Of a stretch of 64,000 bases of DNA, positions 35,005 through 39,184 are shown in pieces; positions within the stretch are counted from its first letter, which is position 1, and every line of letters begins with the position of its first letter. The stretch spans positions 62,001 through 126,000 of the forward strand of contig DUMA01000022.1 in NCBI GenBank assembly GCA_012840135.1. The letters are read 5' to 3'. The stretch is from Thermoanaerobacterales bacterium. Its GTDB lineage: Bacteria > Bacillota > Thermosediminibacteria > Thermosediminibacterales > Tepidanaerobacteraceae. Below the pieces are notes generated by a model. The model was given only the letters and a program-made list of their open reading frames with translations. It searched no databases and was not told where the DNA came from. Position numbers and translations under genes: made by a program.

Positions 35005-36282
35005 TCATACAATATAATTTTGATCTATTAATTCCTGGTACGCTTTTATTATACCAAGTTTCACATGGGTATAATTGATTCCCCCTTGTATGTACGCTAT
35101 ATAAGGTTCTCGAATGGGTGCATCAATGCTCAATTCTATTGAAGATCCCTGGATAAAGCTACCTCCTGCCATGATAACCTGATGGTTGTATCCCGGCATA
35201 TCCCAGGGTTCTGGTAAGACGTGGGAATCTACTGGCCCCACCTTTTGTATGCCACGACAAAAACTTATAAGAATGTCTTTGTTTTTAAAAACTACTGCTG
35301 TTACTATATCTCCTCTTTTCTCATTATATTTGGGAAAAACCTCAAACCCCGCCAGTTCCATAAATCTTGATGTAAAAACTGCGCTCTTTAGAGCTTCTCC
35401 GACCACCAGTGGAGCAAAAAACAATCCCTGGAGGGTAAGGCGGTTTGTGGAAAGTGTAGGTCCGCAGTTTTTACCAATGCCTGGCGCTGAAAGTCGGTAA
35501 GAACACTGTTTTACCAGTTCTTCCTTCCCTACTACATACCCCCCAGTAGGAGCTATGCCTCCTCCGGGATTTTTTATTAACGAACCAGCACACAAATCGG
35601 CTCCCACTTCAATAGGTTCTTTTATATCCACAAATTCCCCATAGCAATTATCGACAAGACAAATAATATCCTCTTTTATACTTTTTATATGTCTTATTAA
35701 TTCTCCTATTTCATCCGGCCGGAGTGCATGTCTCAAGCTGTAACCTCTTGATCTTTGAATTAATACCATTCGAGTATCCCGATTGATTTTTAAAGCTATT
35801 TGTTCATAATCGGGCTTTCCATCCTTTAAACTTACTTCGGAATATTTAATTTTGAAATCTGCCAGGGAAGAACAGTTTTTACCCCATATTACATCTTTTA
35901 ATGTATCATACGGAGTTCCTGTCACGCTTAAAAGCTCATCATTTGGCCTCAATATCCCGAAAAGGCACAAGGTTATGGCATGGGTGCCTGATATGATTTG
36001 AGGTCTGACAAGGGCATCTTCAGCTTTAAAAACAGTCTTGTAAATTTCTTCTATAGTGCTTCTTCCCTCATCATTATATCCATATCCCGTAGAATCTGTA
36101 AGATGAAAGTCGCTGAGACCCGAAGCTCTCATAGCTGTTATAACTTTTAGCTGGTTATACTCTATCAAGTCATCTATTGTTCGCCAATATGGTTCGATAT
36201 CGGTCTGCGCCTTCTCGGCAAGTTCTAATACCTTTTGATCTATGTAGTAGTGTTCTTTTAAAAAAGTCCAGGTTGAATTCAC
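35005..36282 (-). CDS. ynbB: PLP-dependent Met gamma-lyase-like protein (YnbB, 'aluminium resistance' family)
   Basis: A 425-residue PLP enzyme of the Cys/Met-metabolism fold. The PLP region is IISGTHAITLCLFGIL (about 95), LVDNCYGEF gives the conserved Asp (about 211), and LIKNPGGGIAPTGGY (about 235) carries the PLP lysine. The C-terminus INYTHVKLGI is family-typical. It starts with GTG behind AAGGGGA. In Bacillus ynbB lies next to spoVK and hflX; here it is in the same place relative to spoVK, though the intervening genes differ. The in vivo reaction is unknown. Confidence 0.88.
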   Translation of the reverse strand: MNSTWTFLKEHYYIDQKVLELAEKAQTDIEPYWRTIDDLIEYNQLKVITAMRASGLSDFHLTDSTGYGYNDEGRSTIEEIYKTVFKAEDALVRPQIISGTHAITLCLFGILRPNDELLSVTGTPYDTLKDVIWGKNCSSLADFKIKYSEVSLKDGKPDYEQIALKINRDTRMVLIQRSRGYSLRHALRPDEIGELIRHIKSIKEDIICLVDNCYGEFVDIKEPIEVGADLCAGSLIKNPGGGIAPTGGYVVGKEELVKQCSYRLSAPGIGKNCGPTLSTNRLTLQGLFFAPLVVGEALKSAVFTSRFMELAGFEVFPKYNEKRGDIVTAVVFKNKDILISFCRGIQKVGPVDSHVLPEPWDMPGYNHQVIMAGGSFIQGSSIELSIDAPIREPYIAYIQGGINYTHVKLGIIKAYQELIDQNYIV

Positions 36283-36366: not shown

Positions 36367-36579
36367 TCAGATTTTAGGTGATATTTTTAAAAAATTACAA
36401 TCTTGATGGCACAGGGGACATATGCCATTTTCCATTAATTTTCTTTTTAATTCCATTGGTATAATGGCTTCTCCTTCACTAAAACCTTCTTTTTTCCCTA
36501 TCCTTCTTCCGATAGCATAACCAAGCAAGAAAACTGAAAGCCCCAGTATTAAAATTAAGAGTATGGTTTTAAAAATCAT
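36367..36579 (-). CDS. Small membrane protein with Cys motif
   Basis: A 70-residue protein with one N-terminal membrane helix (TILLILILGLSVFLLGYAIG) followed by a basic GRRIGKKEGF and a C-terminal CPLCHQDC that could bind zinc. The ribosome site GAGGAGG overlaps the stop of the gene before it, so it is the last gene of the spoVK operon. No known family. Confidence 0.6.
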   Translation of the reverse strand: MIFKTILLILILGLSVFLLGYAIGRRIGKKEGFSEGEAIIPMELKRKLMENGICPLCHQDCNFLKISPKI

Positions 36580-36581
36580 GA

Positions 36582-37202
36582 TCAGGCTGCCTCCTCATCG
36601 GGTTTTTCTAGTTTATTAACGTTGTGGAACCATAAATTTATTATGTTAACAATAGCTCCCAGTGAAAATATTCCTGATAAAGCTTTGAAAAAATCCAGGT
36701 AAAGGGATGAAATAAAAAAAATTATTCCAAGCAGTAGGCATTCATTTTTGCCTAGCAAAAATGCCCAGTTTTTTGTTGAGTATATGTCTGTCCTGTAGTC
36801 CGCATAGTCATCCCATAGTTGAATAGCAATAATCAAAAAAAGCGAAGAAAAAGTTTCGACAGCTCCAAATAAAACAACTGCCATGATTATTGTTAGAATT
36901 GACTCCTGGTAGCCATATAAGCCCGATGGCATTTTAGCATTCAAATTTCCCGCCATACCTGTGGAAAAACTTGCAAAAAAAAGGCTAATGGCTGTGGGAG
37001 GATTTAGAATGCACGCCAGGGAAAAAATAAATAAGGCATACGGTAATGTGCCCAGACGCAAAATTCTGGTTATATTATCTTTTTTTATGAGCTCATCAAA
37101 TTCCATATCCATATAGTCATCCATTATTTTTACAACCATTCCTGTCAAAAAAACACTTAAAAAAGTTTTAAGTGCAAACGGGTTAAATATTATGGGCCAC
37201 AA
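36582..37202 (-). CDS. Miniature UbiA-like membrane protein
   Basis: A 206-residue integral membrane protein with about five or six hydrophobic segments. It has two similar Asp-rich stretches, KIMDDYMDMEFDEL near residue 25 and QLWDDYADYRTDI near residue 127, about 100 residues apart. UbiA prenyltransferases carry two such D-x3-D motifs for Mg-diphosphate binding, but they are about 290 residues long, so this is either a shortened or a distantly related member. The TTG start lies 20 bp inside the preceding GTPase gene. Function is not known; prenyl-diphosphate chemistry is an inference. Confidence 0.5.
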   Translation of the reverse strand: MWPIIFNPFALKTFLSVFLTGMVVKIMDDYMDMEFDELIKKDNITRILRLGTLPYALFIFSLACILNPPTAISLFFASFSTGMAGNLNAKMPSGLYGYQESILTIIMAVVLFGAVETFSSLFLIIAIQLWDDYADYRTDIYSTKNWAFLLGKNECLLLGIIFFISSLYLDFFKALSGIFSLGAIVNIINLWFHNVNKLEKPDEEAA

Positions 37203-37791
37203 AGGTTTTCACCTCTTTAAAACCTGTTTTATGAAGGGCTGATATGGGTATTATAAAGTGACCGGATAATTCTTCTTTGATCTTTTTTAACCCATTTTTA
37301 GCTCCAGGCAAGTCCATTTTATTTGCCAGAATCACATAACCTCTCCTTATTTGAGCAAATTGAGCTATTTGATAATCTACAACTCCCATGGCATTGGGCA
37401 GTTCCTTTTTTCCTGCAGCAGACGCATCAATAATATGAATTATAAAATCTGATTCACGCACTGCCGATAGTGTTTGTGAAATGGCTTTTCGAATATCGCT
37501 GTCTGGGTGAATACCGTCGATTAATCCTGCAGTATCGATCAGCTGAATTTTTTTTTTGCCCTTTCCCATGGGAATATCAACGGTTACGGCCTGAATATTT
37601 CTGGTTTTATGGATTTTTCCATCGGCGAGTTTGGAAAGTGCCAGTTTGGGATTAATTTTCTCATAATCTTTTGTACCATCGCTATTTAATCTTTCTATTT
37701 CAATGGTGTTCATGCCAAGATATTCTGCAAAATTTATAAGAAATACTGTTTTACCAACGCCTGTTTTGCCTATGATAGTGCATTTTTTCAA
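37183..37791 (-). CDS. Small GTPase, Era/HflX-like domain only
   Basis: A 202-residue P-loop GTPase. G1 is IIGKTGVGKTVF at residue 7, a DTAG G3 motif near residue 86 (QLIDTAGLIDG), G4 NKMD near 159 and G5 as ISALHKTG near 185. There is no RNA-binding KH or HflX N-terminal domain, so it is a bare G domain. Its TTG start overlaps the spoVK stop (TTGA). It occupies the position that hflX (ynbA) has next to spoVK in Bacillus but is a different protein. The sequence TRNIQAVTVDIPMGKGKKK may contain switch I. Confidence 0.8.
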   Translation of the reverse strand: MKKCTIIGKTGVGKTVFLINFAEYLGMNTIEIERLNSDGTKDYEKINPKLALSKLADGKIHKTRNIQAVTVDIPMGKGKKKIQLIDTAGLIDGIHPDSDIRKAISQTLSAVRESDFIIHIIDASAAGKKELPNAMGVVDYQIAQFAQIRRGYVILANKMDLPGAKNGLKKIKEELSGHFIIPISALHKTGFKEVKTFVAHNI

Positions 37792-38759
37792 ACTTCTTCC
37801 ACCTCCGATATATCCTCGGGCTTTATATATAGAAGATCTTCTCTGGAAATCTTTTTCTGATTTATTAACCTAACAGCTTGTAGCCGTATAGCTTTTTCTA
37901 TCATATTTCTTACCATCCGGGCATTTCCCATCTTTTCATAATTGATACCATTTCTGCTGTTGATAAGAATTTTTTCAAATTTAGACATAGCTTCGGAACT
38001 GAATTTATATTGTCTTTTTTCTACCATCATTTTTGCAATTTGCATAAGCTCTTCAATGGTATAATCGTTAAACTCCATTCTTATGGGAAATCTTGATCTG
38101 AGGCCGGGATTTGTCTGTAAAAACCACTCCATTTCATCCTTATATCCCGCCAGAATAACAATGAGACTATCTTTATGATCTTCCATGGCCTTTACGAGTG
38201 TATCTATAGCTTCTTTTCCGAAATCCTTTTCTCCTCCCCTTGCTAAAGAATATGCTTCATCTATAAACAATATCCCTCCCAGTGCGCGTTTAATTTGTTC
38301 CTTTGTCTTTTGCGCTGTGTGTCCGATATATTCTCCTACCAGGTCTGCCCTTTCCACCTCTATGGTATGACCCTTTTGAAGTATTTTCATAGCTTTGAAC
38401 ATTTTCCCCAAAAGCCTTGCTACTGTCGTTTTACCAGTGCCTGGATTTCCTTTAAAAATCATATGCAGCACCTGGGGCTCCGTCCGAAGGTTTTCTTCCT
38501 GTCGTTTTTTTTGAATGGCAACGAAAGCCTGTATTTCTTTCACCAGTTGTTTTACTTTATTAAGACCGATTAATTCATCAAGTTCTTTCATAATATCCTC
38601 TAATTGTTCTTCATCATTTACTCTGGTTATAATCTGACCTTTATGATTATCCAACTCCCTGAAAATCACAAATGCTTCTGCAGGTGTTATCTGACCGTTG
38701 TTTAACATTTCTACTACTTGACTTGGGTTTTGCACGTTATTTTTTAAATTACAGCTCAT
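37788..38759 (-). CDS. spoVK: Stage V sporulation protein K (AAA ATPase, CbbX-like)
   Basis: A 323-residue AAA+ ATPase needed for spore maturation in Bacillus. Walker A FKGNPGTGKTTVARLLG near residue 108, Walker B ILFIDEAYSLARGG near 168, sensor and arginine-finger region NPGLRSRFP near 225. The 80-residue N-terminal extension with ITPAEAFVIFREL is less conserved. It is the first gene of a four-gene operon on the minus strand (spoVK, GTPase, UbiA-like, small membrane protein) and lies downstream of hfq, from which it is separated by a strong bidirectional hairpin. Confidence 0.92.
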   Translation of the reverse strand: MSCNLKNNVQNPSQVVEMLNNGQITPAEAFVIFRELDNHKGQIITRVNDEEQLEDIMKELDELIGLNKVKQLVKEIQAFVAIQKKRQEENLRTEPQVLHMIFKGNPGTGKTTVARLLGKMFKAMKILQKGHTIEVERADLVGEYIGHTAQKTKEQIKRALGGILFIDEAYSLARGGEKDFGKEAIDTLVKAMEDHKDSLIVILAGYKDEMEWFLQTNPGLRSRFPIRMEFNDYTIEELMQIAKMMVEKRQYKFSSEAMSKFEKILINSRNGINYEKMGNARMVRNMIEKAIRLQAVRLINQKKISREDLLYIKPEDISEVEEV

Positions 38760-38820
38760 ATAAGATAAGCACCCCGCAAAAATTCTGTATCAATTTATTA
38801 TATGCAGCATCATAGGAAAT

Positions 38821-38863
38821 GACACAAAAAACCCTGGATATTATTTCCAGGGTTTTTTGTGTC
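38821..38863. terminator. Perfect 17-bp hairpin terminator after hfq
   Basis: GACACAAAAAACCCTGG and its exact complement flank a 9-nt loop. On the minus strand it ends hfq with a T run inside the right arm; it would work in both directions. spoVK therefore needs its own promoter in the 60 bp beyond, where I see no clear one. Confidence 0.88.
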
Positions 38864-38879
38864 ATTTCTTTTATGCTTT

Positions 38880-39146
38880 CTAGCTTTCAGTTTCTTCGGG
38901 CTTCTTCTGTTCCGAACTTGTGTTAAAATTAAAAGTTACAGGTTTGAAAGGAGATATGGTTGAAACAGCATGTTTGTAAACCAGCTGTTGTCTGCCGTCA
39001 GAGTCTAACACCACAGTAAAATTATCAAATCCCCGAACGTGACCCTTTAACTGGAAACCGTTTATCAGATAAATGGTTACAGGTATATTATCCTTTCTAA
39101 CCTGGTTTAAAAAGCTGTCCTGAAGATTAATCTGAGCTTTTGTCAT
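38880..39146 (-). CDS. hfq: RNA chaperone Hfq
   Basis: An 88-residue RNA chaperone (Sm-like fold, hexameric). The Sm1 region [20 protein letters not shown] and the Sm2 motif [10 protein letters not shown] are complete; FTVVLDS and [14 protein letters not shown] are typical. A Firmicute Hfq is often short, but here the C-terminus is extended by about 18 residues rich in Ser, Glu and Lys. Two ATGs are possible; 39146 is better spaced from the AAGGGGG (39149 is only 4 bp away). It follows miaA, as in Bacillus and E. coli. Confidence 0.94.
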
Positions 39147-39184
39147 CATTTGTCCCCCTTAAATTATTGTTTACATTGTATATT

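Follow-up and report, generated by a model that had tools for sequence, protein, structure and literature searches.

Among the known systems closest to the locus studied in this work is the spoVK-hflX(ynbA)-ynbB region of Bacillus subtilis, in which we take spoVK to be followed by hflX, without the three genes described below; the spoVK and ynbB flanks are common to the two. In PMC10659427, SpoVK is placed among the dedicated chaperones of the CbbX/EccA clade and is described as acting in the mother cell, where it activates MurG at the acidic surface of the forespore. The B. subtilis gene is transcribed from sigmaE and sigmaK promoters, of which the sigmaE promoter is dispensable (PMC517825). 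The sporulation membrane protein ShfA/YabQ has been proposed to bind or shield undecaprenyl phosphate at the forespore (PMC13232292). In the UbiA superfamily, a member has nine transmembrane (TM) helices (PMC9385802), arranged in a characteristic layout of helices and cytosolic caps (PMC7839719, PMC9385802).

Here, we consider a spoVK locus in a 64,000-nucleotide stretch of DNA from a Thermoanaerobacterales bacterium (hereafter, the window), whose features are collected in Table 1. On the minus strand, the gene order is mutS-mutL-miaA-hfq followed by spoVK-GTPase-membrane protein-CxxC protein-ynbB, and lexA is convergent; hfq and ynbB were identified by Pfam, and miaA, mutL, mutS and lexA from their sequence. 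The AAA+ gene exceeds the curated cut-off of the NCBIfam equivalog model and is a true spoVK. The initial annotation had placed genes for a GTPase, a membrane protein and a Cys protein between spoVK and ynbB, with tightly coupled start and stop codons. All four open reading frames (ORFs) are found there, and the junctions bear out the coupling: the GTPase gene overlaps spoVK by 4 bp, its TTG start lying over the spoVK stop, the membrane protein gene overlaps the GTPase gene by 20 bp, and a 2-bp gap separates it from the CxxC gene.

Table 1. Positions of the spoVK locus features in the window
Feature	Position	Strand	Evidence or remark
spoVK, AAA+ chaperone, 323 aa	37788..38759	-	TIGR02881 429 bits vs curated cut-off 422.95; Pfam AAA and AAA_lid_6
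Bare GTPase, 202 aa, TTG start	37183..37791	-	MMR_HSR1 1.6e-10
Mini-UbiA-like membrane protein, 206 aa, TTG start inside GTPase gene	36582..37202	-	ORF, AlphaFold model and hhalign to UbiA
Mini-UbiA Asp motif 1, D28-D29-x-x-D32	37107..37121	-	Invariant in alignment A1
Mini-UbiA Asp motif 2, D131-D132-x-x-D135	36798..36812	-	D131 and D135 invariant; D132 >90%
One-helix membrane protein, 70 aa, CPLC	36367..36579	-	CxxC in 65/65 relatives
sigmaE/sigmaK-type -10-like element CATATAATA	38796..38804	-	~37 bp upstream of spoVK
ynbB, Met_gamma_lyase family, downstream neighbour	35005..36282	-	PF06838 3.6e-180
hfq, upstream neighbour	38880..39149	-	PF17209 1.1e-34

Between hfq and spoVK, the sequence contains a strong hairpin with A/T runs on both flanks (38825-38865), which is likely a bidirectional terminator. 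Because this hairpin and its T run separate the two genes, spoVK is probably the first gene of a separate operon. The window carries a perfect CATATAATA -10 element in front of spoVK, for which no matching AC -35 element was found in the same upstream region. Across 59 loci, the sigmaK-type pattern AC-N16-18-CATAN3TA is present upstream of spoVK in 29%, compared with 0.8% of shuffles, and none (0%) has it in front of miaA, hfq, ynbB or lexA; the sigmaK -10 element alone is present in 37% vs 5%. The sigmaF/G and full sigmaE consensus sequences are not or hardly enriched upstream of spoVK.

The GTPase contains the motifs G1 (GKTGVGKT), G3 (DTAG), G4 (NKMD) and G5 (SAL) together with T63, and the residues G8, G13, K14, T63, D86, G89, N157, K158 and D160 are invariant. 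These motifs and the G-domain fold assign it to the TRAFAC GTPases (MMR_HSR1). Its model (pLDDT 92) consists of one G domain, for which the nearest folds are Era (E 6e-9), the G domain of MnmE, YphC/Der and the G domain of FeoB; the nearest PDB entry by sequence profile is Obg (1lnz, 1.5e-14). HflX, Obg, Era and Der share with it the TRAFAC-type G domain with G1-G5, whereas the cassette GTPase has no N-terminal, middle or KH domain. It is thus a bare G domain without any RNA-binding domain, as had been read from the sequence at the outset. In particular, it is not HflX, since both the N-terminal (PF13167) and middle (PF16360) domains are absent and the score of 35.5 bits lies below the HflX model cut-off of 216.75. 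The initial annotation had also put the trio of genes where Bacillus has hflX. We reject the GTPase or the trio as a replacement for hflX because the two coexist: at least nine loci have an hflX-like ORF after the Cys gene and before ynbB, and its HflX domains were confirmed for one of them (L128).

The membrane protein required profile methods, since direct scanning of the window sequence yields only a 34-residue match in NCBIfam, and in Pfam gives no UbiA match at E up to 1. Its relatives are more informative: 28 of the 61 match Pfam UbiA (PF01040; best 1.5e-9), and their top NCBIfam matches are MenA/GGGP-transferase models. In a profile-profile comparison by hhalign with 30 UbiA-type proteins of the same relatives, the probability is 92.4% (P 5.3e-7) over residues 7-197, compared with 0.1% for the reversed control, 0.7% for MraY and 0.1% for BacA. 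Polyprenyl synthases (IPPS) give about 31.5% (P 5e-4), with one motif only. The membrane-protein profile itself catches two true UbiA proteins at about 3e-6 and 5e-6; in these matches, NEFPDxxxD...GKRNWVVxLG of UbiA corresponds to DDYADYRTD...STKNWAFLLG of the membrane protein.

An AlphaFold model built on 61 sequences (pLDDT 94.3, pTM 0.89) has seven main helices (8-31, 44-66, 68-83, 97-112, 114-134, 152-169 and 171-199), with motif 1 (K25-x2-D28-D29-x2-D32) at the end of helix 1 and motif 2 (D131-D132-x2-D135) at the end of helix 5. Note that the loci from the scan of GTDB genomes were picked by a pattern containing K25/D28/D29/D32, so that the conservation of these residues in alignment A3 is partly by construction; for this claim we therefore use alignment A1, which was collected without the pattern. 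In A1, D28, D29 and D32 are invariant, and UbiA motif 1 (NDxxDxxxD) is present in the altered form DDxxD(xxxD). UbiA motif 2 (DxxxD, which follows at a distance of four helices) is present as DDxxDxxxD, where D139 is not invariant; Y55, G82, M83 and E100 are invariant as well. Of the homologues, the most divergent (G210, L134) retains the two Asp motifs only in part.

The membrane protein thus shares with the UbiA superfamily (PF01040: MenA, UbiA and DGGGP synthase) a pair of Asp motifs spaced by four helices, in loops that face the cytosol in UbiA, a Glu at the GxGE position (E100), and alignment over nearly the whole length. In contrast to UbiA, it has seven main helices in the model rather than nine and about 200 rather than about 300 residues, and both of its motifs are DDxxD. 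Its helix and motif layout would fit TM2-TM8 of UbiA, as if TM1 and TM9 were missing and the three cytosolic caps kept. Taken together, the profile-profile comparison, the Pfam matches of the relatives and this layout point to a distant, shortened relative of UbiA and, given its seven helices, not to a canonical UbiA prenyltransferase. The early label "mini-UbiA", offered with structure prediction as a check, is therefore right in kind, and by these three lines the protein does not look unrelated to UbiA; of the two D-x3-D-like motifs then noted, the likeness to UbiA stands, but each motif is a DDxxD and so more than a D-x3-D.

The trans-isoprenyl diphosphate synthases (FPPS/GGPPS, PF00348) resemble mini-UbiA in having two DDxxD motifs on a helical bundle. 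They are the best Foldseek matches of the model among solved structures (farnesyl and geranylgeranyl diphosphate synthases, probability up to 0.89), but these matches are not significant: none of the best 50 matches listed has E below 0.001. Furthermore, mini-UbiA differs from them in being a membrane protein, and its IPPS profile match is confined to one motif. Searching the PDB with its sequence profile gave motif-level matches to polyprenyl synthases only (E 0.4 and above), and a viral fold library gave no significant match.

The third gene encodes a protein whose N-terminal TM helix runs into a GX3 repeat (GYAIGRRIGKKEGFSEG) that extends past the membrane and is followed by CPLC. Five consecutive GX3 units are present in 52 of 65 relatives. 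From the CPLCHQDC first remarked in this protein, the CxxC pair is conserved throughout, but the third Cys is not, and the proline is found in about half of the relatives. No Pfam or NCBIfam family matches it above the cut-off. Rad50-type zinc hooks and glycine-zipper helices likewise have one CxxC per chain and a GX3-repeat helix, respectively, a resemblance of short motifs only.

The gene order is conserved far beyond chance. Among the 67 named loci from the GTDB scan, which come from Thermosediminibacterales, Halanaerobiales, Negativicutes, Alicyclobacillus, Geosporobacter and Limnochordia, 61 have the complete spoVK-GTPase-membrane-CxxC order on one strand, and ynbB lies downstream in 44 of these 61. 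The six incomplete loci comprise two with a split GTPase ORF but the order kept (Thermovorax and Fervidicola), one that failed only a coordinate filter (L077), two at contig ends, and one real exception, L048 of Halanaerobacter jeridensis, where the membrane protein stands alone in a genome with SpoIVA and without spoVK. When six-frame genomes were searched at the protein level, 32 of 61 relatives proved to have the membrane protein, and the 30 loci returned and annotated from this search have the same order throughout, save small lesions, contig ends and one locus in which spoVK has moved away (L019). Even the 20-bp overlap is a trait of the family: 51 of 65 loci have a start codon in the membrane-gene frame (36 TTG, 12 ATG, 3 GTG) at exactly 20 bp from the end of the GTPase gene, inside that gene. 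In four genomes (L130-L133), the trio is kept together 7-18 kb from spoVK.

Several loci depart from this pattern in detail. The GTPase frame in Thermovorax and Fervidicola (L035:5401-6020 and L037:5398-6020) breaks in both at the same point, a long A run, with the membrane and CxxC genes intact; the break may be a lesion, a sequencing artefact or slippage. The lone mini-UbiA gene of H. jeridensis (L048:5989-6537) adjoins hfq. At ten Halanaerobiales-type loci (L039, L041, L042, L049-L051, L054, L062, L064 and L087), hfq lies downstream of the CxxC gene and not upstream of spoVK. In one genome (G063, L138:786-3258), an inserted gene pair for a response regulator and a histidine kinase separates the GTPase gene from the mini-UbiA gene. 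In Geosporobacter ferrireducens, the 24.6-kb "plasmid" NZ_CP017270 duplicates the chromosomal spoVK region near the end of the chromosome record (L094, L076), and is probably unclosed chromosome rather than a plasmid.

For the phyletic pattern, we use an even draw of 299 Bacillota genomes, in which counts ignore kinship. The membrane-protein profile matches 69 genomes, or 68 after removal of G212, whose match, like a second match in G014, is an ordinary full-length UbiA protein. All 68 carriers have SpoIVA, and 67 have a strong SpoVK; in the remaining one (G211), the trio adjoins HflX and ynbB. By our reading of the listing, a SpoVK match below about 1e-20 is present in about 208 of the 299 genomes, and, with kinship ignored, the trio is present in roughly one third of the SpoVK genomes and nearly absent from the rest. 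In G012, a 99% complete genome of the window's family, SpoIVA, SpoVK and the membrane protein are all absent, which represents co-loss. The neighbourhood survey suggested with the initial annotation accordingly finds the trio adjoining spoVK in about a quarter of the sampled genomes. The trio is missing from many SpoVK-bearing sporulators and is thus dispensable for the function of SpoVK.

The GTPase profile matches 73 genomes, namely those with the membrane protein and five more. In all five, the GTPase gene directly follows spoVK, and the membrane and CxxC genes are absent; downstream of it are ThiF and M20 peptidase genes in three, ynbB in one and a contig end in one. In the three (L260-L262 in G062, G103 and G138), the GTPase copy is divergent, and ynbB follows the ThiF-family E1-like gene and the M20 peptidase gene. 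These five genomes, and the trio that is intact away from spoVK, mark the GTPase as the nearest partner of spoVK and the trio as a separate unit. A common complex or pathway had been proposed for these genes. The promoter pattern, SpoIVA co-occurrence and co-loss argue for a spore pathway, but the five genomes with only GTPase and spoVK, the distant trio in four genomes and the solitary membrane protein of Halanaerobacter do not support an obligatory complex.

A UbiA-type protein beside spoVK would fit a polyprenyl-phosphate step at the forespore, and an isoprenoid-lipid step is plausible for the cassette. Our preferred reading, to which we give somewhat less than an even chance, is a sporulation-specific mother-cell cassette for a membrane complex at the forespore that would bind or modify polyprenyl (di)phosphate, serve the lipid supply of the cortex together with SpoVK/MurG, and have the GTPase as its switch. 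Its proteins would be made in the mother cell and placed at the outer membrane of the forespore, the site of SpoVK action. In this membrane, mini-UbiA would bind polyprenyl (di)phosphate via its two DDxxD motifs as Mg-binding sites, and would either move a prenyl group or keep the lipid ready for cortex synthesis, the pathway where MurG is activated by SpoVK on lipid I. By its GX3 face, the one-helix protein may pack on mini-UbiA, with its CxxC dimerising or binding metal, and the GTPase could be a soluble switch between SpoVK and the membrane unit. ShfA/YabQ is comparable as a proposed polyprenyl-phosphate binder at the forespore, upstream of MraY/MurG, but has an unrelated 3-helix fold. YabQ is listed for nearly all mini-UbiA carriers; since the two co-occur, YabQ is not the counterpart of mini-UbiA, and replacement of one by the other was rejected.

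It is possible, though we regard it as doubtful, that mini-UbiA is instead an active prenyltransferase for a dedicated spore-membrane prenyl lipid (a prenylated small molecule, glycerophosphate or terpene), unconnected with lipid II and next to spoVK through shared timing only. Such an enzyme would explain why both Asp motifs and E100 are kept and why the Halanaerobacter protein persists without spoVK and the others. It also accords with four carriers without any Pfam UbiA (G006, G010, G023 and G025, of which G006 and G010 are 99% complete), hosts in which a link to quinone synthesis is unlikely. However, adjacency to spoVK is almost invariable across distant orders, and the cassette contains no other lipid-synthesis gene. 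The membrane protein might also lack catalysis and be a client or anchor, remodelled by or docking SpoVK with help from the GTPase at the forespore membrane, much as CbbX-type chaperones serve one dedicated client. The seven helices instead of nine, the direct coupling of the AAA+ and GTPase genes and the clade of SpoVK, as given in PMC10659427, all agree with this, but we consider it unlikely, as the strongly conserved catalytic-type Asp motifs suggest that phosphate/Mg binding is kept.

More improbable still is a merely inherited hfq-spoVK-hflX-ynbB order with a GTPase that works on ribosomes and no common pathway. The nearest G domains are indeed those of Obg, Der, Era and HflX, and the surrounding miaA, hfq and ynbB have housekeeping roles; against this, the GTPase has no RNA-binding domain, hflX coexists with the trio, presence tracks sporulation genes, and the trio stays together away from spoVK and survives the relocation of hfq in Halanaerobiales. 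That the genes are a chance run of ORFs or an artefact, as the small ORFs and TTG starts might suggest, is already refuted by their retention, with strongly conserved residues, in dozens of genomes.

As far as we have searched, the spoVK-GTPase-mini-UbiA-CxxC cassette is undescribed. The literature search found spoVK joined neither with a UbiA protein and a GTPase nor with hflX. Figure 3A of PMC10659427 depicts operons of the SpoVK clade, so the set may have been noticed earlier. Where UbiA is named with forespore and sporulation, the gene is an unrelated one of C. difficile and spoVK is not named; reports naming spoVK, GTPase and neighborhood, including CoCoNuT, appear not to describe the cassette. 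We put forward only tentatively that the locus is a new sporulation module, in which a minimal UbiA enzyme of seven helices and its CxxC membrane partner, together with an AAA+ chaperone and a switch GTPase, would supply or modify the polyprenyl carrier of cortex peptidoglycan. In many spore formers, this module would then be the lipid-side branch that is missing from the SpoVK-MurG step.

The role of SpoVK has been explained only recently, in B. subtilis; in many other spore formers, spoVK is accompanied by three additional genes that go unmentioned in the literature searched. On the reading preferred here, the trio would give a direct handle on the management of lipid-linked precursors at the forespore membrane. 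Mini-UbiA adds a shortened branch to the UbiA superfamily and may define its minimal core, and the trio provides new sporulation-specific marker genes.
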